This document shows, in pieces, positions 1 to 62,799 of a stretch of 64,000 bases of DNA (position 1 is the first letter of the stretch; every line of letters begins with the position of its first letter). The notes under the pieces were generated by a model that worked only from the letters and a program-made list of their open reading frames with translations, made no database searches and had not been told where the DNA came from. Origin of the DNA: Methylobacter tundripaludum SV96 (GTDB lineage Bacteria > Pseudomonadota > Gammaproteobacteria > Methylococcales > Methylomonadaceae); assembly GCF_000190755.2 (NCBI RefSeq), contig NZ_JH109154.1, positions 62,001 through 126,000 on the forward strand. The letters run 5' to 3'. The position numbers and the translations under genes are program-made.

Positions 1-3577
<3,577 letters not shown>

Positions 3578-3585
<8 letters not shown>

Positions 3586-3931
3586 CGCCGGTGCCCACGC
3601 GATGGAAAACATGCTCGCTGACTTCGGTGTCATTTTCCAGGTGTTCGCTGACGATGCGCTCCAGCACGGACTCGTCGGTACAGGAATACCAGACGCCTTC
3701 AGGGTAAACGACCAGGATCGGGCCGTTTTTGCAGACGGCAAAACAGTTTGAGCGTGTGCGTTTTACTTTAAGCTGAGGGCGGGCATCGATTTTTTGACCC
3801 AGCTGTTGAAACATGGCTTCGGCAACTGCTCCCTGCGTTGCTCTACCTCCTGCATCCATGCAGTCGTGTTCGTTGTTTCCAGAGCAGCGCGGGCCTGTAC
3901 ACATCAGTACGTGTTTGTTGTGGGTTCTCAT
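3578..3931 (-). CDS. (2Fe-2S) ferredoxin domain protein of the cobalamin operon
   Basis: Small thioredoxin-fold 2Fe-2S ferredoxin, 117 aa, probably an electron donor in cobalamin synthesis (for example cobalt reduction); that role is inferred from the operon. Cysteines seen: C11 and C16 (MCTGPRC), C63 and C67 (NCFAVCKNGP) and C84 (WYSC). ATG 3931 overlaps the cbtA stop (ATGA), so it is preferred over an upstream in-frame start. Residues 22-38 (HDCMDAGGRATQGAVAE) are the family A repeat, inserted between the first cysteine pair and an otherwise normal AMFQQLGQKIDARPQLKVKR stretch. The last codons overlap the first possible codons of cobN. Translational coupling along the operon is likely. Confidence 0.9.
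3819..3868 (-). repeat. ~50-bp peptide-coding repeat, copy 2 (family A), inside the ferredoxin gene
   Basis: Reads on the minus strand as the unit coding HDCMDAGGRATQGAVAE. It differs from the 19761 copy at two bases (ACG for ATG, GTT for ATT), so its internal start codon is lost here. The palindrome CTGCATGGATGCAG and GGAGGT are intact, and the host frame stays open. Confidence 0.9.
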
Positions 3932-4605
3932 AACTCTTTTTTGTAAAACTGCCCCATCAAGCCGCCAATCGCCAGCCAAAAGACAGCATTGGCAAAAACG
4001 GTGGCTGTTATAAAAGACTGCGCCAATTCGGCAGGCGCAGCGCTGCTGTGAACTTCCGGCTGCGGCGCACTGATTAAATGAGGCGCTGCGAGCAACACGA
4101 TGCCGAAAAACTGGTTGGTTCTGGTTTTAGCAAAAGCCAGCAGCGACAGACCGAAGCCGGTATCGAGCACCGTTATCAGCCACCAACTTTGCCGGTCCGC
4201 CAGTCTGGCAGCCTCGGTACCGGGAACTTCCGGCGGCAAGCCCAATGACGGTGCGACGAAAAAGGTCAGGTAACCGGCCAGTCCCCACAACAGCCCCATG
4301 CGCCAATTGCCTGGGCGACCGCGCAAGCACATGACCGCGCCGATCAGCAGGGCGAAACCCACGCCCAGGCTGATATTGGCTACCGCAGTAAAAAATGTCC
4401 GCTCCCAACCGTTTTCAGGCTGCCATTCATGGTGTTCGTGACTGTTTTCCGTGCTGGGAACGACCGCAGCTTCCTCGTACACTTCGGCCTTGAGCAGCGT
4501 CGGGATAACTTGGATTTGTTGAACGGCGGTTAATAACAAACCCGCCAGCAAGCCCGTCCAGAGAGCCGCAATAACCAGCTCTCTGAAGGTGGTCAGATTA
4601 AACAT
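3928..4605 (-). CDS. cbtA: CbtA-type cobalt transporter subunit
   Basis: Integral membrane subunit of the CbtAB cobalt importer, 225 aa. The N-terminal helix runs into LLAGLLLTAVQQIQVIPTLLKAEVYEE, the hallmark of the family, and further membrane segments follow through to the short basic tail (YKKEL). ATG 4605 overlaps the cbtB stop as TAATG and gives the usual CbtA N-terminus; GTG 4614 is a less likely start. It lies between cbtB and the ferredoxin with overlaps on both sides, downstream of a B12 riboswitch. This places cobalt uptake under cobalamin feedback. Confidence 0.92.
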   Translation of the reverse strand: MFNLTTFRELVIAALWTGLLAGLLLTAVQQIQVIPTLLKAEVYEEAAVVPSTENSHEHHEWQPENGWERTFFTAVANISLGVGFALLIGAVMCLRGRPGNWRMGLLWGLAGYLTFFVAPSLGLPPEVPGTEAARLADRQSWWLITVLDTGFGLSLLAFAKTRTNQFFGIVLLAAPHLISAPQPEVHSSAAPAELAQSFITATVFANAVFWLAIGGLMGQFYKKEL

Positions 4606-12766: not shown

Positions 12767-12837
12767 ACCACGAAGGCACGAAGAGCACGAAGTTTTTTAC
12801 TTTGGATTTTCTTCGTGAACTTCGTGTCTTCGTGGTG
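12767..12837. repeat. Palindromic interspersed repeat (CACGAAG family), copy 1
   Basis: The left arm (CACCACGAAGGCACGAAGA...) and right arm (...CTTCGTGTCTTCGTGGTG) form a long imperfect hairpin. It lies between the HAD gene and beta-RFAP synthase. Relatives are at 23258-23362 and 60884-60925. Confidence 0.85.
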
Positions 12838-12897
12838 ATATGCCGTGCAGATGGGTGTCAAGTTTCCACACCTTAGTTCGCAGCCGCTAGGCCGATC

Positions 12898-19127: not shown

Positions 19128-19187
19128 GAAGCAGGATTTGCTGGTGATACAATATAACGTTTATTTTATAGCTGTTTATTGAATATT

Positions 19188-20285
19188 GTGAAAATTCTGG
19201 TGTTCGAGTATATCACTGGCGGCGGCTTTAATAAGCAGGCGTTGTCGGATTCATTGGCAGAGGAAGGGAGGTTGATGCGCAATGCATTGCTCGATAACCT
19301 GACCCGATTAAACCAAACCCGGTCAAACCGTCTCGAAATCACAGTCATGATGGATTGGCGACTTAACGATTCAGCAAGCATGACGGGCATAAATACCGTC
19401 ATCATCAGGCCTGAGCATGATGTTACAGAAGAATTTGCGCGACTGGTTAAGCAATGCGATCTGGTATGGCCGATAGCGCCGGAGTTTGACGGTATTTTAC
19501 AAAACCTGTGTCAAACGGTTGAATCATTAGGCAAGATATTACTGACGTCGCCTGCAACGGCCGTTGCTATTGCCGGTAACAAACTCAAGACTTATGAGCG
19601 GCTCAACCGTCATCATATAGCCGCCGTTCCTACCCGTATCTTTGATGATGATTACTCCCCCGGTGAATGGATGGTTAAACCGGTTGATGGCGTGGGTTGT
19701 GCAGACAGCTATGTCCTTACCACTCGGCAGGACTTTGAGCGGATGGCTACACAAAAAGGCCACGACTGCATGGATGCAGGAGGTAGAGCAATGCAGGGAG
19801 CAATTGCCGAATATGTCATGCAGCCGCATCTTCAAGGCGCAAAAACCAGTCTTTCGTGCTTATTCAAGCAAGGCCGCGGCTGGTTAGTGTGTGCCAATTT
19901 GCAGCGTTTTGAGTTCATCAAACAGCAATATCACTTGACAGACATCGTGGTGAATCACCATCCCGACCTTGGCCGGTATCAGCCATTGATTGATAAAATA
20001 GCCCGAGCCTTGCCTGAGTTGTGGGGTTATGTAGGTATCGATTTGATAGAAAGTGATCACGACTGCATGGATGCAGGAGGTAGAGCAATGCAGGGAGCAA
20101 TTGCCGAGACATGGGTGCTCGAAATAAATCCCCGCCTGACCACTTCGTTTGTCGGTATATACGATGCTTTAGGTATCAATATTGCCGAGGCTGTTTTGCA
20201 GTTAGTGCATGGCGAGCCGATACTCAACCAGGCTTACAACAGGCCCATTACCGTTCAAGCAAAACAGGAAACTCATGCAAGCTAA
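19188..20285 (+). CDS. ATP-grasp ligase (MfnD-like) carrying two repeat-encoded insertions
   Basis: ATP-grasp protein beginning MKILVFEYITGGGFNKQ, the opening of the family that includes archaeal MfnD, a tyramine-glutamate ligase of methanofuran synthesis. GTG 19188 gives this start; a TTG three codons upstream is possible. Seen: GEWMVKPVDGVGCADSYVL (ATP-binding), WGYVGIDLIESD and WVLEINPRLTTSF (metal site). The 17-residue unit HDCMDAGGRAMQGAIAE occurs twice, after MATQKG and between DLIESD and TWVLEINPR, where the family should run almost directly from one motif to the next. The frame is open. The gene overlaps the MfnF-like gene by 11 bases. A role in methylofuran synthesis is inferred. Confidence 0.85.
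   Translation: MKILVFEYITGGGFNKQALSDSLAEEGRLMRNALLDNLTRLNQTRSNRLEITVMMDWRLNDSASMTGINTVIIRPEHDVTEEFARLVKQCDLVWPIAPEFDGILQNLCQTVESLGKILLTSPATAVAIAGNKLKTYERLNRHHIAAVPTRIFDDDYSPGEWMVKPVDGVGCADSYVLTTRQDFERMATQKGHDCMDAGGRAMQGAIAEYVMQPHLQGAKTSLSCLFKQGRGWLVCANLQRFEFIKQQYHLTDIVVNHHPDLGRYQPLIDKIARALPELWGYVGIDLIESDHDCMDAGGRAMQGAIAETWVLEINPRLTTSFVGIYDALGINIAEAVLQLVHGEPILNQAYNRPITVQAKQETHAS
19761..19811 (+). repeat. ~50-bp peptide-coding repeat, copy 3 (family A)
   Basis: Codes HDCMDAGGRAMQGAIAE in the host frame. Contains CTGCATGGATGCAG (6-bp arms), GGAGGTAGAGCAATG and a direct repeat of GAGCAAT. Its first 50 bases are identical to those of copy 4, 297 bases downstream. Confidence 0.95.
20058..20108 (+). 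repeat. ~50-bp peptide-coding repeat, copy 4 (family A)
   Basis: Matches copy 3 over 50 bases and codes the same 17 residues, placed two codons before VLEINPR of the ATP-grasp metal site. Confidence 0.95.
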
Positions 20286-23257: not shown

Positions 23258-23362
23258 ACCACGAAGACACGAAGACCACGAAGTTATTACATCGATTTTT
23301 CTTCGTGGTCTTCGTGGTCTTCGTGGTCTTCGTGGTCTTCGTGGTCTTCGTGTCTTCGTGGT
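23258..23362. repeat. CACGAAG-family palindromic repeat with 9-bp tandem expansion, copy 2
   Basis: The left arm starts ACCACGAAGACACGAAG at 23258. The right arm begins with five perfect tandem copies of CTTCGTGGT (23301-23345), then CTTCGTGT, then CTTCGTGGT. It fills the gap between the convergent GGDEF and pntB stops, where the hairpin could also act as a terminator. Confidence 0.9.
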
Positions 23363-23368
23363 GAATGC

Positions 23369-26327: not shown

Positions 26328-26941
26328 ACAGTCTCCAATGCGAGTAGTTTAGAGCATAGTGAGCAAGGGCTTTAACATCTGGTCAAAACCTCAGCGTGGA
26401 GAATAGGAGATTAAGCTATGTTTTTCAATAAAAAACATAATACGGGTGAGTGAATGTTGGTTTTTCAAGGGGTAGATGCTTTTTTATCTGTATGAAAGCC
26501 GCTACATCCAATTTGGATCATTGATAGCGCTAGGTTTACAAAAAATCAGTTTAAGCTTACAGAAAAATCAGCTTTGGCCGATATACAGCTGCAATTTTAT
26601 GGCCGACGATGACACCATCGCTTAACCCCCTCAATCATACCGGACTTTCTTGTCCGACATCCTGCGGTTGAGTGCATGTCATGGGTGCTCGGAGCATGAC
26701 CGCAATTGATGATGAGGGGGCGATGTACTTTGGGTATTCTTAAATTAAAGAACCGATAGGATTATCGTAGGAAAGCCTAAAACCTAGCATTGCTAGAACA
26801 TACTTTTAGCTGTTTTTATAAAATTGATAATTTATAAGAATGGCATGACATTTTTTATAGGTGATGATTTTATGATTGATGATGTTCTTTTCTTGTTATC
26901 TGATATGTCATGCGTTTACGCGGTAACAGGTGATTTTTCCC
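26328..26941. other. 600-bp intergenic region between pntA and the RHS gene
   Basis: Divergent promoters must lie here. Visible structures are a 9-bp AT hairpin (TATGTTTTT at 26417-26425 with AAAAACATA at 26431-26439) and the folded element at 26607-26725. No ORF of substance. Confidence 0.6.
26607..26725. other. Candidate structured RNA or palindromic element
   Basis: The pairing is explicit. The outer stem CCCCCTCA-A-TCAT (26626-26638) pairs with ATGATGAGGGGG (26709-26720), 12 bp with one bulge. It encloses hairpin 26641-26656 (CGGAC/GTCCG) and hairpin 26663-26704 (TGCGGT/ACCGCA), a three-way junction. CATCG (26616-26620) can pair either with CGATG 26607-26611 or with CGATG 26721-26725, so two exclusive folds exist. 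No known RNA family was recognised. Confidence 0.45.
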
Positions 26942-29900
26942 ATGCGTAAAATCTTATACTTATTACTGATATTGTCGTCAAACATTGCGAATGCAGGCGC
27001 TTTTCCGGCGGCTAACACTGGTCCAGCGCTCACTTTAACGGCCGAGTCGCAATGCACACAATCAGGGTTGTCAGCGTTATACGGGACGGCTTATACCTAT
27101 GGAATTGCGGGGTATAATCCATCGCAATGGAGCGGTCTAAAATGCAAGGCATTTTTAAACGGCGTTTGGACTCTCACAGTTTTTTTATTTCCTTATCAAT
27201 ATTGTCCCGCTGGTGGTTCTTATTACATTTATGAGGATATATGTGTTTATGCATCTGCATGTATAGCCCCCCAAAAAAGAAACGCAACAACCGGCATTTG
27301 TGAATTACCGTCTACCCCTGCCGTCATCCCCCTCAAAAACACCGGAAAGCCACCACTTTGTTCAAGCGGCGGCAACCCCATCAACATCGGCACCGGCAAC
27401 AAATACCAGCCTGAAACTGATTATCAGGGCGCTGGCGACTTCCCCCTGGTTTTCGAGCGCACCTACAACAGCGATGCCTCAACCGTTAGCGAACGCCTCG
27501 GAACCGGCAGCGGCTGGCGGCATAGCTACGAGCGCTCGATTACCAGCGCCGCCAACAGCAGCCTGGCGACCGCCTACCGCGCCGACGGCAGCGCTTACGA
27601 TTTTACCTTAACCGGCAATAGCTGGTCGTCGCCTGCCGATGTCAACCTGAAACTCAGCCGCAGCGCCTCACCCGATACCTGGCTGTTAACCACCGAAGAC
27701 GGCAGCGTCGAAACCTATAACGCCACCGGCCAACTGCAATCGATCAAAAGCCGCTCGGGCGCTAGCCAAACACTGACTTATGATGCCAATGGCCTGCTGA
27801 CCGCCGTCACCCATTCCAACGGACGCAGCCTGACCTTGAGCTACGACAGCAACCTTCGCGTTACCACCCTGCAAGATCCGGCAGACGGCCTTTATCGCTA
27901 CGGCTACAACAATGCCACCGGCAACCTTGAGACAGCGACTTACCCCGATCAAACCACACGCACCTACCTGTATAACGAATCCGCCAACGTCGGCGTCGAT
28001 ATGCCGCATGCCTTGACCGGTATCATCGACGAGAACAACCACCGCTTTGCAACCTTCCAATACGACAACCAAAAACGGGCCGTCTTGACCCAACACGCAG
28101 GCGGAGCCGAGCGCGTCAGCGTCGCCTACGGCAGCAATAGCAACGTCGTCACCGATGCGCTGGGCACCGCGCGTACCCACCGCTTTCAAACCCTGCAAGG
28201 CGTGGTCAAAAGCATCGGCAGCGACCAACCGGCGGGCGCAGGTTGCAGCGCCGCTGCCAGCGCCATCAGCTACGATGCCAACGGCAATACCGCCAGCCGC
28301 ACCGACTTCAACGGCAACCGAAGCTGCTATGCCTACGATCTGAGCCGCAACCTTGAAACCACCCGGATAGAAGGCCTAGCCCCCGGCTCAAGCTGCCCCG
28401 CCGATCTGGCGAGCTACACCCCCGCCAACAGCAGCGAACGCAAGACCAGCAGCCAATGGCATGCCAGTTACCGTCTGCCCAGCCAAATCGACCAAGCCGG
28501 GCAACGCACCACCTTCAGCTACGATGCCCAAGGCAACCTGCTGCAAAAGATCGTCAGCGCAGACGGCCAAACCAAAACCTGGACACTGACCTACAACACC
28601 AACGGCCAACCCTTAACCATCGACGGGCCGCGCAGCGACGTTAACGACGTCACACACTTTAGCTACGACGCCAAAGGCGACCTCAACACCGTTACCGATG
28701 CACTGGGCCATGTCACCACCATCACCAGTTATAACGCCAACGGCCAACCGTTAGCCCTTAAAGACCCCAACGGCCTAATCACCACCTTCCAATACGACCT
28801 GCGCGGAAAACCGGTTGCCTCAGGCGTCGGCACAGAAATCACCCGTTACAACTACGATGCCGCAGAGCAGCTGATCAACGTCACCTTGCCGGACGCCTCC
28901 ACCATTGCCTACAGCTACGACAACGCCCACCGGCTGGTGAGCATTGCCGATACACTGGGCAACCATATCGATTACACCCTGGATAAAATGGGCAACCGCC
29001 TCAGCAGCCAAGTCACCGATCCCGCCAACAACCTGACCCGTACCCGCGCCCAGGTTTTTGACAGCCTCAGCCGACTGGCGAAAACCATAGGCTCACAAAA
29101 CCAGACCGCCAACTACGGCTACGACGCCAACGGCAATGTCACCACCATCACCGACCCGCTGGGTAACAAAACAGCGTTCGCTTACGATCCGCTCAACCGC
29201 TTAATAAAAAGCATCGACCCCACCGGCAAAGTCACCCAAAGCAGCTACGACAGCCATGACCACCCGCTATCCATAACCGACCCCTTGGCGCACATCACCG
29301 ACTACAGCTATGACGGCTTCGGCAACCAGCTGAGCACCGACAGCCCCGATACCGGTCAAACGCAAGTCAGCTACGACGATGCCGGAAATCCCCAGAACAG
29401 AACCGATGCCCGGGGACAAACCGTCAACTACAGCTACGACGCCCTAAACCGCGTCAGCCAAGTCACTTATGCCGACAAACCGCCCATTACCTTTACTTAC
29501 GACCAGGGCAGCAACGGAACCGGCCACCTGACCCAGATGGTCGATGAGTCAGGCACCACCCGCTGGAGTTACAACCTACAGGGTAAAGTGACCAGCAAAA
29601 GCTTCAACACCGGTTCGCTGACCCTGGTAGCCAAATACGCCTACAACAGCAACGGCCAACTCACCGCGCTCACCTACCCATCCGGCAAAGTCGTACAGCT
29701 GACCTACAGCAACGGCCAAATAAGCGCAGTGGACGCCAACCGCTCATCGCTGCTCAGCAACATCCACTACCAACCCTTCGGCCCCGCCCAAGACTGGATG
29801 TTCGGCAACGGCGTCCAAACCAGCCGCAGCTTCGACCTGGATGGCCGCCTCATCGACTACGACCTGGGCGACCGGTCGCGGCAGTTGACCTACGATGCCG

Positions 29901-31330
29901 CAGGCCGCATCACCGGCTACAGAGACTCCGACCTCAACTACGACCAAAGTTTCAGTTACGACCCACTGGGAAGATTGATAAATTACACCGACCCTACCAG
30001 TCAAACCCGCTACAGCTACGATGCCAACGGCAACCGCACCGAACAGCAAGGTGGCGCACAGGGCAAAAGCTTTAACATCGAAGCCATCAGCAACCGCCTG
30101 CTGTCCATCACCGACAACCAGCTCCAGACCCTGAAAAGCTACAGCTACGATGCCGCAGGCCACATAACCGGCGACGGCTATCATCATTTTGCCTATGATG
30201 GCAGAGGCCGGATGGTGCAGGCCTCCAGCATCGGCCACGGCACTGAACAATACCGGGTCAACGGGCTGGGGCAACGCGTGGCGAAAATCCATGGACACGC
30301 ACATGAAAAGTCCAAAGATGACGATCATGACAGCAAGCAAACAGAGACCGACCACCATCGCAATGAGCAAGACAACCATCAAAACGATGTGCCAGCAGGC
30401 ATCTACTTCGTCTATGACCAAGCCGGGCACTTGCTGGGCGAATACAACCAACACGGCAAAGCAATACAGGAAACCGTCTGGCTAGGCGACATGCCGGTAG
30501 CCGTGCTGGCAAATAACCAGCATTACTTCGTCTATGCCGACCACCTCAACAGCCCACGGGCGATTACCGACCGCACCGGCAGAGTCGTCTGGCGTTGGGA
30601 CAGCGATCCTTTTGGCGCTACGGTCGAAAACGAAGATCATGACGACGACCATCATCACGCCTTCGGTAGCAAAAAAGCCGACGAAGACCCCGACCGGGAT
30701 GGGCAAAGATTTGTTTACAACCTGCGCTTTCCGGGGCAGTATTACGACAAGGAAACGGGGCTGAATTATAATGGATTTAGGGATTATGATTCGGAGGTGG
30801 GGCGGTATCGGCAGAGTGATCCGATTGGGCTAGCCGGAGGCATTAATACCTATGTATATGTGGGTGGGAATCCGGTTAACAGGATTGATCCGACAGGACA
30901 ATTTGCTCAAGTTATCATACCAGGGGTTGTCATCGGAACTGGCGTAGCTGCTATTCTTTGTGCGTCCAATCCTTCTTTATGCCAGAAAGCCATCAAAGGT
31001 TGCTTTGACGGCATCAACAAGATGTTTAATGAAGCTACTGACAAGCATCCGAGCACTCCAACAGGTCAACGTGGCTCACCAATGGATGTGCCTAAAGGTA
31101 CAAATGCTCCAACGACTATTGGTGATAGAGATTATGGCGGTCACGCTCTCGATCAGATGCAAGGCCGCGGTGTTCCTCCAAGCGCGGTCGAAGATGCCAT
31201 TGAGAACGGAAATTCAAGTCCGGACAAGAGCTACCCAGACTCACGCACCGAGAACACTAGTGCCGATGGTCGTGTTGTTGTTATTACAGATAATGACACG
31301 GGCCGTGTCATTACCGTTATCACTAAATGA
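26942..31330 (+). CDS. Exported RHS-repeat polymorphic toxin
   Basis: A 1462-aa protein with a Sec-type signal peptide (MRKILYLLLILSSNIANAG) and no PAAR domain. From about residue 145 a DUF6531-like opening (GNPINIGTGNKYQPETDYQG) leads into dozens of YD repeats (Y-D-x2-G-x2 units), ending in the conserved core end GLNYNGFRDYDSEVGRYRQS followed by DPIGLAGGINTYVYVGGNP. The variable C-terminus (about 150 aa) ends in a HALDQMQGRGVPPSAVEDAI domain resembling DUF4258-type RNase toxins. Two His/Asp-rich loops interrupt the late core. The core is GC-rich, the tip AT-richer, as usual for exchangeable toxin tips. GTG 26930 is an alternative start. The immunity candidate overlaps its stop. Confidence 0.9.
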   Translation: MRKILYLLLILSSNIANAGAFPAANTGPALTLTAESQCTQSGLSALYGTAYTYGIAGYNPSQWSGLKCKAFLNGVWTLTVFLFPYQYCPAGGSYYIYEDICVYASACIAPQKRNATTGICELPSTPAVIPLKNTGKPPLCSSGGNPINIGTGNKYQPETDYQGAGDFPLVFERTYNSDASTVSERLGTGSGWRHSYERSITSAANSSLATAYRADGSAYDFTLTGNSWSSPADVNLKLSRSASPDTWLLTTEDGSVETYNATGQLQSIKSRSGASQTLTYDANGLLTAVTHSNGRSLTLSYDSNLRVTTLQDPADGLYRYGYNNATGNLETATYPDQTTRTYLYNESANVGVDMPHALTGIIDENNHRFATFQYDNQKRAVLTQHAGGAERVSVAYGSNSNVVTDALGTARTHRFQTLQGVVKSIGSDQPAGAGCSAAASAISYDANGNTASRTDFNGNRSCYAYDLSRNLETTRIEGLAPGSSCPADLASYTPANSSERKTSSQWHASYRLPSQIDQAGQRTTFSYDAQGNLLQKIVSADGQTKTWTLTYNTNGQPLTIDGPRSDVNDVTHFSYDAKGDLNTVTDALGHVTTITSYNANGQPLALKDPNGLITTFQYDLRGKPVASGVGTEITRYNYDAAEQLINVTLPDASTIAYSYDNAHRLVSIADTLGNHIDYTLDKMGNRLSSQVTDPANNLTRTRAQVFDSLSRLAKTIGSQNQTANYGYDANGNVTTITDPLGNKTAFAYDPLNRLIKSIDPTGKVTQSSYDSHDHPLSITDPLAHITDYSYDGFGNQLSTDSPDTGQTQVSYDDAGNPQNRTDARGQTVNYSYDALNRVSQVTYADKPPITFTYDQGSNGTGHLTQMVDESGTTRWSYNLQGKVTSKSFNTGSLTLVAKYAYNSNGQLTALTYPSGKVVQLTYSNGQISAVDANRSSLLSNIHYQPFGPAQDWMFGNGVQTSRSFDLDGRLIDYDLGDRSRQLTYDAAGRITGYRDSDLNYDQSFSYDPLGRLINYTDPTSQTRYSYDANGNRTEQQGGAQGKSFNIEAISNRLLSITDNQLQTLKSYSYDAAGHITGDGYHHFAYDGRGRMVQASSIGHGTEQYRVNGLGQRVAKIHGHAHEKSKDDDHDSKQTETDHHRNEQDNHQNDVPAGIYFVYDQAGHLLGEYNQHGKAIQETVWLGDMPVAVLANNQHYFVYADHLNSPRAITDRTGRVVWRWDSDPFGATVENEDHDDDHHHAFGSKKADEDPDRDGQRFVYNLRFPGQYYDKETGLNYNGFRDYDSEVGRYRQSDPIGLAGGINTYVYVGGNPVNRIDPTGQFAQVIIPGVVIGTGVAAILCASNPSLCQKAIKGCFDGINKMFNEATDKHPSTPTGQRGSPMDVPKGTNAPTTIGDRDYGGHALDQMQGRGVPPSAVEDAIENGNSSPDKSYPDSRTENTSADGRVVVITDNDTGRVITVITK

Positions 31331-31693: not shown

Positions 31694-31770
31694 GTAGGCT
31701 GGGTTGAATGTAATGAAACCCAGCGTTGTTCGCATTAATTCTGGGTTACGCGTTGCTCTACCCAGCTTAC
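31694..31770. repeat. 77-bp interspersed repeat with inverted ends
   Basis: GTAGGCTGGGT at 31694-31704 and ACCCAGCTTAC at 31760-31770 are near-perfect inverted ends. The interior carries TGAAACCCAGC and TTCTGGGTTACGCG, also complementary. MITE-like; it abuts the transposase element. A related GTAGGGTGGGTT-type repeat is widespread in bacteria. Confidence 0.7.
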
Positions 31771-31820: not shown

Positions 31821-32766
31821 GGGGTCAGGCCTTACATTTGACATATCTATCATGCTGCCTTACTATTTTGTCAGTTTAATTTCGTATCGGATATACAGAT
31901 GGCGAGGCCTTTAAGAATTGAGTTTGCGGGGGCGTTATATCATGTAACTGCGCGAGGTAATGCTCGGGAAGATATCTATCGAGATGATGCTAATCGTCAG
32001 CAGTTTTTGATGTTGCTACAGAATACGGTCAATCGCTATGACTGGTATTGTCACGCTTATTGTCTAATGGACAATCACTATCATTTGTTGATTGAAACCA
32101 ATACGCCAACCTTGTCCAAAGGCATGAAGTTTCTCAATGGCACTTACACGCAATATTTCAATCGTCAACATCAACGTGTAGGCCATGTATTTCAAGGCCG
32201 ATTCAAAGCCATACTGGTGCAAAAAGATTCCCACTTGCTGGAATTGGCACGTTACATCGCTTTGAATCCGGTGCGTGCTCAAATGGTGCATAATGCAGCA
32301 GAGTGGCGGTGGAGCAGCTATCGTGCAACGGCTGGATACGATGACAACGACGCCTGTTTAACCACCGAATGGATACTCGCCGGATTTGCCGAAACAAAAA
32401 TCGTCGCACAGCAACGCTATCGCGAGTTTGTTCAAGAAGGCAAAGGACAGTCTTCACCTTGGCAACAGTTGAAAAATCAGATTTTTCTGGGTGACGATGG
32501 TTTTGTAAACAACATGCAATGCAAGCTTAACCCAGAGCAATCGCTTAAAGATATACCCAAAAAGCAAAAACAAGCTCCTGTAAAACCATTGAGTTATTAT
32601 GCTGAGCGATATAAAACCCGCGACGAATGTATGACCCAAGCGTATTGGAGTGGACACTATACACTTGCCCAAGTGGGCGAATATTTTGGCGTGAGTTACG
32701 CCACCGTGAGTCGGGCGGTGAAACAGGCTGAAAAGAGGGGGAGTGTCAAATGTAAGGCCTGACCCC
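31821..32766 (+). mobile_element. REP-associated transposase element with 23-bp inverted ends
   Basis: 31821-31843 and 32744-32766 are perfect 23-bp inverted repeats (left end starts GGGGTCAGGCCTTACATTTG). They bracket one transposase ORF, whose stop codon lies inside the right end. Just outside the right end, CCCCTGACTCATTTGACCCC repeats similar words, suggesting nested ends. No IS-type target duplication was seen. Confidence 0.8.
31899..32762 (+). CDS. REP-associated tyrosine transposase (RAYT/TnpA-REP, IS200-like)
   Basis: A 287-aa HUH-type transposase: MARPLRIEFAGALYHVTARG opening, the metal-binding H60-Y-H62 in CLMDNHYHLLIE, and the catalytic-tyrosine region ELARYIALNPVRA followed by WRWSSYRA. 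It also has a C-terminal helix-turn-helix-like segment (YTLAQVGEYFGVSYATVSRAVK), found in some members. The last residues (SVKCKA) and stop are encoded by the right inverted end. It cleaves and joins single strands at REP-like hairpins in known cases. The gene appears intact. Confidence 0.93.
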   Translation: MARPLRIEFAGALYHVTARGNAREDIYRDDANRQQFLMLLQNTVNRYDWYCHAYCLMDNHYHLLIETNTPTLSKGMKFLNGTYTQYFNRQHQRVGHVFQGRFKAILVQKDSHLLELARYIALNPVRAQMVHNAAEWRWSSYRATAGYDDNDACLTTEWILAGFAETKIVAQQRYREFVQEGKGQSSPWQQLKNQIFLGDDGFVNNMQCKLNPEQSLKDIPKKQKQAPVKPLSYYAERYKTRDECMTQAYWSGHYTLAQVGEYFGVSYATVSRAVKQAEKRGSVKCKA

Positions 32767-60883: not shown

Positions 60884-60925
60884 ACCACGAAGACACGAAG
60901 AAATGAAGCTTCGTGTCTTCGTGGT
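60884..60925. repeat. CACGAAG-family palindromic repeat, copy 3 (short)
   Basis: Perfect 17-bp inverted repeat: ACCACGAAGACACGAAG at 60884-60900 and its exact complement at 60909-60925, loop of eight. It follows htpX and may serve as its terminator. Confidence 0.9.
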
Positions 60926-60962
60926 GAATCATTTTTATGCTTAAGTTGATGCTGATATTATC

Positions 60963-61377: not shown

Positions 61378-62799
61378 TTGATTGAAGGTGTGCAATTGAA
61401 AACAGAAGTTCTGGTGCTGGGCGGTGGTCCTGGAGGCTACACAGCGGCATTTCGTGTGGCCGATTTAGGGAAACAAGTTACTTTGGTTGAGCGTTATCCG
61501 GTTTTGGGCGGGGTTTGTTTAAATGTCGGCTGCATTCCGTCAAAAACCTTGTTGCATGTGGCGGCGGTGCTCAATGAAGCCAAAGAGATTAATTCGGCCG
61601 GGATCGGTTTTGCAGAACCCGACATTGATCTGGATAAACTGAGAGGCTGGAAAAACACCATCAGTTCCCAGTTAACTACGGGCTTGGCGGCGTTGGCAAA
61701 GCAGCGCAACGTAACGGTTGTTAAAGGCATCGGGCGTTTTATTTCCGACGCGCAGGTGTTGGTTGAAGACGGTGACGACACCCAGACCCTAGAGTTTGCA
61801 CAGGCCATTATCGCGGTCGGCTCCCAGCCGGTAAAAATACCGTCGTTTCCCAATGACGATCCCAGGCTGATGGATTCCACCGATGCGCTCAAGCTTGAGA
61901 GTATCCCGAAAAAACTGTTGATTATCGGCGGCGGCATCATCGGCCTGGAAATGGCAACCGTTTATAATGCGCTGGGCAGCAAAATCACCGTGGTTGAAAT
62001 GCAGGATCAGATTATCCCCGGTTGCGACAAGGATCTGGTCAGGCCGTTAATGCAGCGGATCAAAAAGCAATACGACAATATTTTTCTGGAAACCCAAGTA
62101 ACAAATATTGAAGCGTTGCCGGAAGGCTTGAAAGTCAGCTTCAACGGTAAAGACGCTCCAGAAACCGATGTATTCAATAAAGTGCTGGTCGCAGTGGGCA
62201 GACGGCCCAACGGTCATTTAATCGATGCCGACAAAGCCGGGGTTAATGTCGATGAGCGCGGCTTTATCAGCGTCGATAAACAACAGCGCAGTAACGTAAA
62301 ACATATCTTTGCGATCGGCGATGTGGTGGGCAACCCGATGCTGGCACATAAAGCGTCGCATGAAGGTAAAATAGCGGCCGAAGTGATTGCCGGTATGGCG
62401 ACCGAGTGGCGGGCCTTGACCATTCCTTCCGTCGCGTATACCGATCCTGAAATAGCCTGGATGGGCTTGACTGAGAATGCCGCTAAAGCGCAGGACATCG
62501 CTTATGAAAAAGCGGCCTTCCCCTGGGCGGCCAGCGGTCGGTCATTAAGCATCGGGCGCAAGGAAGGCGTAACTAAATTGCTTAGCGACAAACAAACCGG
62601 ACGCATTCTTGGCGCCGGTATCGTCGGCACTCATGCCGGTGAATTGATTGCGGAAGCCGTATTGGCGTTGGAGATGGGCGCGGGTGTTGAAGATTTGGCC
62701 TTAACGGTTCATGCGCATCCTACCTTGGCCGAAACCCTGGGCTTTTCAGCAGAAATGATGGAAGGCACTATTACTGATTTATTTATTAAGAGACGATGA
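61378..62799 (+). CDS. lpdA: Dihydrolipoyl dehydrogenase
   Basis: Flavoprotein E3 of 2-oxo-acid dehydrogenases, 473 aa. FAD motif VLVLGGGPGGYTAAFR, redox-active pair C47 and C52 in GGVCLNVGCIPSKTLLH, NAD motif LLIIGGGIIGLEMATVYNALG and the His-Glu pair in VHAHPTLAETLGFS. TTG 61378 gives MIEGVQLKTEVLVLG, similar in length to E. coli; TTG 61396 is an alternative with a GAAGG site. The E1/E2 genes are not in the window. Overlaps the DUF445 gene. Confidence 0.95.
   Translation: MIEGVQLKTEVLVLGGGPGGYTAAFRVADLGKQVTLVERYPVLGGVCLNVGCIPSKTLLHVAAVLNEAKEINSAGIGFAEPDIDLDKLRGWKNTISSQLTTGLAALAKQRNVTVVKGIGRFISDAQVLVEDGDDTQTLEFAQAIIAVGSQPVKIPSFPNDDPRLMDSTDALKLESIPKKLLIIGGGIIGLEMATVYNALGSKITVVEMQDQIIPGCDKDLVRPLMQRIKKQYDNIFLETQVTNIEALPEGLKVSFNGKDAPETDVFNKVLVAVGRRPNGHLIDADKAGVNVDERGFISVDKQQRSNVKHIFAIGDVVGNPMLAHKASHEGKIAAEVIAGMATEWRALTIPSVAYTDPEIAWMGLTENAAKAQDIAYEKAAFPWAASGRSLSIGRKEGVTKLLSDKQTGRILGAGIVGTHAGELIAEAVLALEMGAGVEDLALTVHAHPTLAETLGFSAEMMEGTITDLFIKRR

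Follow-up and report, generated by a model that had tools for sequence, protein, structure and literature searches.

A small double-hairpin repeat with features of a mobile element, between and within genes of Methylobacter tundripaludum and other gammaproteobacteria

Rickettsia and scattered REPs provide most of the known palindromic repeats that are read as part of a protein. A very small repeat of cyanobacteria, SDR5, was reportedly found by Elhai in 2008 to be inserted precisely inside another repeat, HIP1. SDR5 is also among the very small mobile repeats of cyanobacteria cited in the consulted part of PMC4390886. The palindromic elements of Rickettsia (RPE), as the available portion of PMC2229807 describes them, measure 105-146 bp and form one long stem-loop with 12-bp terminal inverted repeats. 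For REPs, the sections of PMC3733652 at hand report some copies that are intragenic and in frame in genes, and others that are nested in palindromes.

The repeat described here forms one compact family in many free-living gammaproteobacteria, with numerous copies dispersed in methane oxidisers and in some others. It was encountered in a stretch of 64,000 nucleotides (hereafter, the window), positions 62,001 to 126,000 of contig NZ_JH109154.1, from the 4.85-Mb genome of Methylobacter tundripaludum SV96. The original prediction of four copies of about 50 bp is borne out: each is an exact unit of 48 bp running CGAC...CCGA, and chance alone would give 0.00 copies. The prediction also took all four to be coding; three lie within genes and one between genes.

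Two units lie in a forward-strand gene (19179..20285) for an MfnD-like ATP-grasp protein, which matches preATP-grasp_3 and ATP-grasp_3 (PF18301, PF02655) and scores 91 bits against NF040722, under the cut-off of 400 of that model. Insertion 1 (19763..19810, plus strand) supplies residues 195-211, and insertion 2 (20060..20107, plus strand) residues 294-310. A third unit (3819..3866, minus strand), with the C/G variant of the second hairpin, lies within a ferredoxin-like ORF (3578..3979, minus strand); the 2Fe-2S ferredoxin model NF041612 covers this insert (E-value 2.8e-15, under its curated cut-off). The intergenic unit (3530..3577, minus strand) abuts the ferredoxin stop codon (TGA, 3580-3578) and reaches the start of a CobN-domain gene (PF02514; ATG at 3528-3526). 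It fills the gap between the two genes, reads on in the CobN frame and has an ATG of its own in that frame; the same layout recurs in record L290. Another unit at a gene 5' edge (L058, 1493-1540) precedes a DegT-type aminotransferase, and there, as at 3530-3577, the unit places AGGAGG and an in-frame ATG ahead of the gene. These 5'-edge units are possible donated translation starts.

Elsewhere, the window contains a 1466-aa ORF (26930-31330, plus strand) with many degenerate repeats of type GCTACGATGCCAACGGCAAT, which from its letters we take to be a YD/Rhs-like repeat protein. A low-complexity stretch rich in CATGATGATCGTGATC (1266-1560) is probably a His/Asp-rich coding segment.

Two hairpin modules and their distribution

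The unit is composed of two hairpin modules. HP1 consists of CGAC, a short arm, the loop A-N-GGA-T, the second arm and GAGGTA, while HP2 reads GAGCAAY-GC, loop A(N)GGA, GC-N-RTTGCCGA. Units measure 47 bp when the N of the HP2 loop is missing and 48 bp when it is present. In insertion 1, HP1 (19763..19785, plus strand; stem CTGC/GCAG, loop ATGGAT) is supported by covariation and by loop and stem counts, and HP2 (19786..19810, plus strand; stem GCAATGC/GC-A-ATTGC, loop AGGGA) by covariation; the exact unit of insertion 2 divides into HP1 (20060..20082) and HP2 (20083..20107), both on the plus strand. Where a palindrome with 6-bp arms had been proposed, there are two hairpins, and the second of them includes part of the proposed direct GAGCAAT repeat. 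As for the proposed Shine-Dalgarno sequence plus ATG, the ATG is missing from the commoner C variant (GCAACGC).

Both hairpins covary, with compensatory changes in the stems and near-constant loops. Among 81 distinct 48-bp units, the 12 pairs hold in 97.1% of cells against 90.8% after shuffling, doubly changed cells number 60 against 17.1, and the covariation score is 0.186, as compared with at most 0.051 for slid structures. For example, HP2 pair 30-41 among 226 units is C-G in 136, T-A in 85 and another combination in 5. In a named set of 99 units among the matches listed, whose HP1 letters, except the last, lay outside the query and so were not selected for, the HP1 loop reads A-N-GGA-X in 91 (over the set, N is T in 43, G in 27, A in 17 and C in 12), and the stems, of five different kinds, are fully paired in 83. 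Position A8 is invariant and its partner, column 13, is unpaired in 14 of the 81 distinct units, so that the HP1 loop is best taken as a hexaloop. The A(N)GGA loop is present in 38 of 57 HP2 modules that follow an HP1, and tandem arrays and mixed arrays of modules also occur. A search of Rfam 15 with 551 bases spanning two copies (E up to 10) gave no family match to the unit; the sole match, to a snoRNA, was under the gathering score and lay on the opposite strand, between the units.

The HP1 pattern occurs at 123 places in the genome of the window, on both strands (59/64), against 0 for the reversed control; 100 of the 123 were listed and read. The HP2 pattern occurs 53 times (control, 1). 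Full units among the matches listed number 76, 42 of 47 bp and 34 of 48 bp. Matches were found in 50 of 101 genomes and in 23 of 23 of the genus, the own genome included in both counts. Exact 30-mers fall in at least 116 stretches of named gammaproteobacteria, and seven plasmid records match in part; the hosts among the matches listed include Sedimenticola, Thiohalomonas, Endozoicomonas, Thalassotalea and Paraglaciecola; M. tundripaludum OWC-G53F is a named carrier strain. The named set was retrieved by a 48-bp pattern and is uninformative on unit length. The phage collection held no match to the unit, and one viral contig had a match.

A variant unit with a different second hairpin occupies an in-frame position in pglX, a BREX gene, of a Salmonella plasmid (NZ_CP133280.1; L345, 2501-2548), sense and in the first frame, outside the strand count given below; a Moellerella plasmid pglX also has a match. 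A sub-family in L329, L338 and L339 (around position 1500; at the start in L339) retains HP1 and has an HP2 ending in CAAAGCCGA, as in the pglX copy. In L070, L080 and L083, 47-bp units end a transposase-like ORF in similar contexts, with HTH_Tnp_1 in the first two and an IS3-type orfA by sequence likeness alone in L083. The IS may carry the 47-bp unit along as it is copied.

Copies within genes

Twelve of the 76 full units of the genome (among the matches listed) lie in the interior of a gene with family-model support, and all twelve are 48 bp long and sense. Of the remaining 64, 42 measure 47 bp and 22 measure 48 bp (Fisher p=1.8e-5). The contrast arises partly by construction: an insertion of 47 bp shifts the frame and so never appears in an intact ORF. 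Likewise, the sense frame with a TAG cannot appear as an open one; the earlier reading of the other frames was correct in this respect, two sense and three antisense frames being open. When broken genes were sought, two of the 42 47-bp copies (L087, L125) were flanked on either side by 60 or more open codons in the frames that were expected. In the other genomes, where 38 of 45 ORF rows were scanned for family models, 13 sense and 4 antisense interior insertions were supported (p=0.05, against 12:0 in the own genome). The total is thus 25 sense to 4 antisense (p=1e-4), with the antisense copies in L197, L212, L221 and L222. Hosts include LeuRS, MurF, oligopeptidase A, FlgJ, HypF, Mfd and squalene-hopene cyclase, and a 47-type unit within TatD has gained one extra base to become 48.

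The original prediction held that copies are always sense and always in one frame. The first survives as a bias with four exceptions. The second does not hold: the 29 insertions use two sense frames, D-C-M-D-A-G-G in 18 and T-A-W-M-Q-E-V-E in 7 (p=0.04), and two antisense frames in the other 4, and the genome census shows several frames, with most copies read lying outside genes. The predicted bias in coding copies stands for strand, and a contrast in length stands beside it.

Other copies were set aside from the 25:4 count on several grounds. Units near the C-terminus or past the domain are sense in L050, L137 (GlmU, 47 bp), L138 and L286 (both FliH) and L292, and antisense in L052 and L117. 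Family support was not present on both sides for L044 (antisense, in a 556-aa ORF with no match) or for L037, L076, L091, L128, L187, L193, L230, L236, L249, L259, L291, L306 and L319. The unit lies upstream of the domain or start in the 3530 copy of the window and in L290, L058, L038, L182, L190, L200, L209, L216, L217, L261, L010, L289, L025, L026, L020 and L087. Doubtful rows (L186, L224, L098, L116), the 47-bp IS3-type orfA ends (L070, L080, L083) and rows sharing a site with a counted one (L270, L280, L231, L009, L153, and L024, which is probably the L192 site) were also left out.

Aligned with solved structures, the inserts of LeuRS and squalene-hopene cyclase stand out as a clean gap of 16 residues; the alignment of oligopeptidase A is loose at its insert. 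In LeuRS and other enzymes, the unit provides naturally occurring insertions of 16 residues. A model of the ATP-grasp protein of the window, from 26 rows, has a mean pLDDT of 85.9, with most of the core above 90 and the inserts in blocks of 48-64. In the model, insert 195-211 lies between helix 183-196 and strand 212-216, insert 294-310 lies between strands 283-292 and 310-317, and in neither insert is a helix or a long strand predicted. The two sense frames give unrelated peptides, both hydrophilic (GRAVY -0.29 and -1.16), while the antisense peptides are hydrophobic (+1.03, +0.31 and +0.96), a difference that would explain the strand bias at the level of the protein.

Insertion sites and movement

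Site 1 of the ATP-grasp gene (19763..19810) is empty in 23 orthologous rows, most of which lack exactly the 48 columns, and the other 25 rows of the protein alignment have a 16-residue gap there. At site 2, one of 23 other rows (L153) has a longer in-frame array and the rest are without the unit, row L170 being poorly aligned at this site. Comparison of hosts with their relatives, proposed with the original prediction, has thus yielded empty sites and no target duplication. An A|G junction is seen in 117 copies out of the 170 isolated ones; the background is 4.9%. Of 38 copies preceded by a base other than A, 34 nevertheless have A as the last base of the unit, which rules against a one-base duplication of the target; target-site duplication, a feature of MITEs, was found neither in the orthologous empty sites nor in this check of the preceding base. 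Many copies are nested within other repeats, and this nesting, together with the A|G junction, agrees with the targeted insertion suggested earlier. Discrete ends, presence and absence among orthologues, insertion mostly between A and G and nesting speak for a mobile repeat.

A preference for hairpin loops, apparent by eye, is unsupported by loop counts: the junction lies within the loop of a hairpin of at least 5 bp in 30% of 141 non-coding copies, as compared with 23% of 705 control A|G sites and 26% of shuffled flanks. A CTTCGTGGTCTTCGTGTCTTCGTGGTGA repeat, of the kind that is interrupted by these units elsewhere in the genome, occurs in the window at 12810-12838, 23298-23364 and 60899-60927.

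Judging from sequence comparison, the unit is probably a non-autonomous mobile double hairpin that is translated within genes, its surviving copies filtered for frame and for a tolerable peptide. Made of two modules (HP1 plus HP2), it inserts mostly between A and G. A copy that lands in a gene would be translated and would persist in the protein as a 16-residue insert in a tolerant loop, whereas selection would have purged copies of 47 bp, those in the stop frame and most of those in antisense, whose peptides are hydrophobic.

For the movement itself, the tentatively favoured mechanism would work through single-strand hairpins, with an HUH/Y1 transposase of the IS200/RAYT kind acting in trans; slippage or template switching at hairpins is the alternative. 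The own genome has 11 Y1 matches; no full unit lies within 1.5 kb on either side of these loci, so that linkage to a RAYT was not found there, and the L063 locus has one HP1-like module at 2 mismatches. A Y1 match is absent from one of nine carrier genomes searched. In a set of 61 genomes, the four without Y1 are also without the element, and most element-free genomes have Y1. The contexts of copies that were read show no larger autonomous element with HP1 and HP2 at its ends. Within the window, a 287-aa ORF (31899-32762, plus strand) matches Y1_Tnp (IS200/RAYT-type, E 3e-13), and a GTAG-tagged palindrome (GTAGGCTGGGTTGAATG...AACCCAGC) lies at 31694-31723, about 200 bases upstream of it.

Competing readings and relation to known repeats

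Several other readings bear on how the unit moves and why its coding copies are biased. It could belong to the GTAG REP superfamily and be moved by RAYT, with the GTAG before HP2 as its tag. GGTAG does stand immediately 5' of the HP2 stem, the 11 Y1 matches and the four Y1-less, element-free genomes fit, and both in-frame intragenic REPs and REPs nested in palindromes appear in the consulted sections of PMC3733652. However, this GTAG is internal, spanning the module junction, and the ends are CGAC and CCGA; there are two hairpins rather than one, the Y1 genes of the own genome have no adjoining full unit, and Y1 is also common where the element is absent, which makes membership doubtful. Removal of the inserts from RNA or protein (by an intron, translational bypass or protein splicing) would render them cost-free and suit their presence in essential enzymes such as LeuRS. 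It would also lift the rule of three and allow 47-bp copies in genes, whereas the own-genome interior copies among the matches listed are 48 bp in 12 of 12 cases, broken-gene surroundings were found for just 2 of 42 47-bp copies, and an extra base made up the length of the TatD copy. Both this copy and the rule on length speak against removal, which is extremely improbable. Selection of the peptide itself for a function in its hosts could draw on the mild excess of one sense frame (18:7), but the peptides in use include two unrelated ones from the sense strand as well as ones from the antisense strand, and the hosts are functionally unrelated, making such selection highly improbable.

The loops also raise the question of CsrA. 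CsrA/RsmE binds with high affinity to a stem capped by the hexaloop ANGGAX, in which N and X may vary; without N the affinity falls (PMC4005645, in the part consulted). The unit could be a dispersed, predicted CsrA/RsmA-binding RNA module, with its transcripts acting as decoys or regulated leaders, and a function of the sense-strand RNA would explain the strand bias; both proposals are considered unlikely. In their favour, the unit combines the HP1 hexaloop, a single-stranded AGGAGG linker and the A(N)GGA loop of HP2. The unselected HP1 loops sit directly on a stem in 91 of 99 listed units, the five kinds of stem are mostly intact, and A8 is kept even where column 13 is unpaired. Further, copies at most 100 nt from a gene 3' end are 41 sense to 20 antisense (p=0.01, with rough gene calls), and, of the 34 carriers among the 61 genomes, 32 have a CsrA match. 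CsrA is near-universal here, however, so that its presence says little, and the two carriers without a match (G067, 99% complete; G073, 87%) argue against CsrA being required: all four copies read in them retain the A-N-GGA-T loop of HP1, and one of the four has the consensus pairing in HP2. The orientation between tandem genes is 53:37 (p=0.11), and the loops could also be fixed by common descent or by a DNA-binding enzyme. In the boldest reading, the unit might act as a mobile CsrA-binding cassette, a selfish double hairpin whose loops are A(N)GGAX and whose linker resembles a Shine-Dalgarno sequence, spreading candidate CsrA sites sense-wise into many mRNAs; this is quite improbable. Were it true, the cassette would titrate CsrA, and Csr could come to control a gene downstream, for instance cobN.

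As units come naturally in two lengths, 47 and 48 bp, selection on insertions in genes can be counted through length modulo three, strand and peptide. Since named carrier strains exist, mobility, peptide retention and CsrA binding are directly testable.

The double-hairpin family is undescribed in the open-licence literature searched, where the strings MDAGGRAMQGAIAE and GGAGGTAGAGCAA had no match. The claim of an undescribed system holds for the family in that literature and not for the kind, in-frame palindromic repeats being known. Among the systems compared, RsmZ-type RNAs share A(N)GGAX loops on stems and further GGA in the linker (PMC4005645, as far as the consulted part goes), but here the sequence is a DNA repeat within and between genes and a candidate site only. 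SDR5, as reported, is likewise a very small repeat with precise insertion within another repeat, and is set apart by its host phylum and by insertion within HIP1. GTAG/CGTC REPs, in the sections of PMC3733652 consulted, resemble the unit as short hairpin repeats, mostly intergenic and some in frame, with Y1 transposases in many hosts. In contrast, the unit has two modules, a 47/48-bp pair, no terminal GTAG or CGTC tag and, at the own-genome Y1 loci, no linked transposase. The CGTC features given in those sections (CGTC at one end, a CCA tail) are absent from both of its strands, and it lacks the GTAG arrangement of a terminal GTAG followed by one stem-loop.

The likeness to RPE that had been predicted is borne out by the 29 supported in-frame insertions in protein genes. 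Both are palindromic repeats found between and within genes, in frame in conserved proteins (PMC2229807, in the portion available). The present unit differs in its 47-48 bp, its two short hairpins and its gammaproteobacterial hosts, and departs from the size and terminal repeats of RPE as that portion gives them. On the best reading, the unit works like the palindromic elements of Rickettsia and like intragenic REPs, yet stands apart from both in the features that define them.
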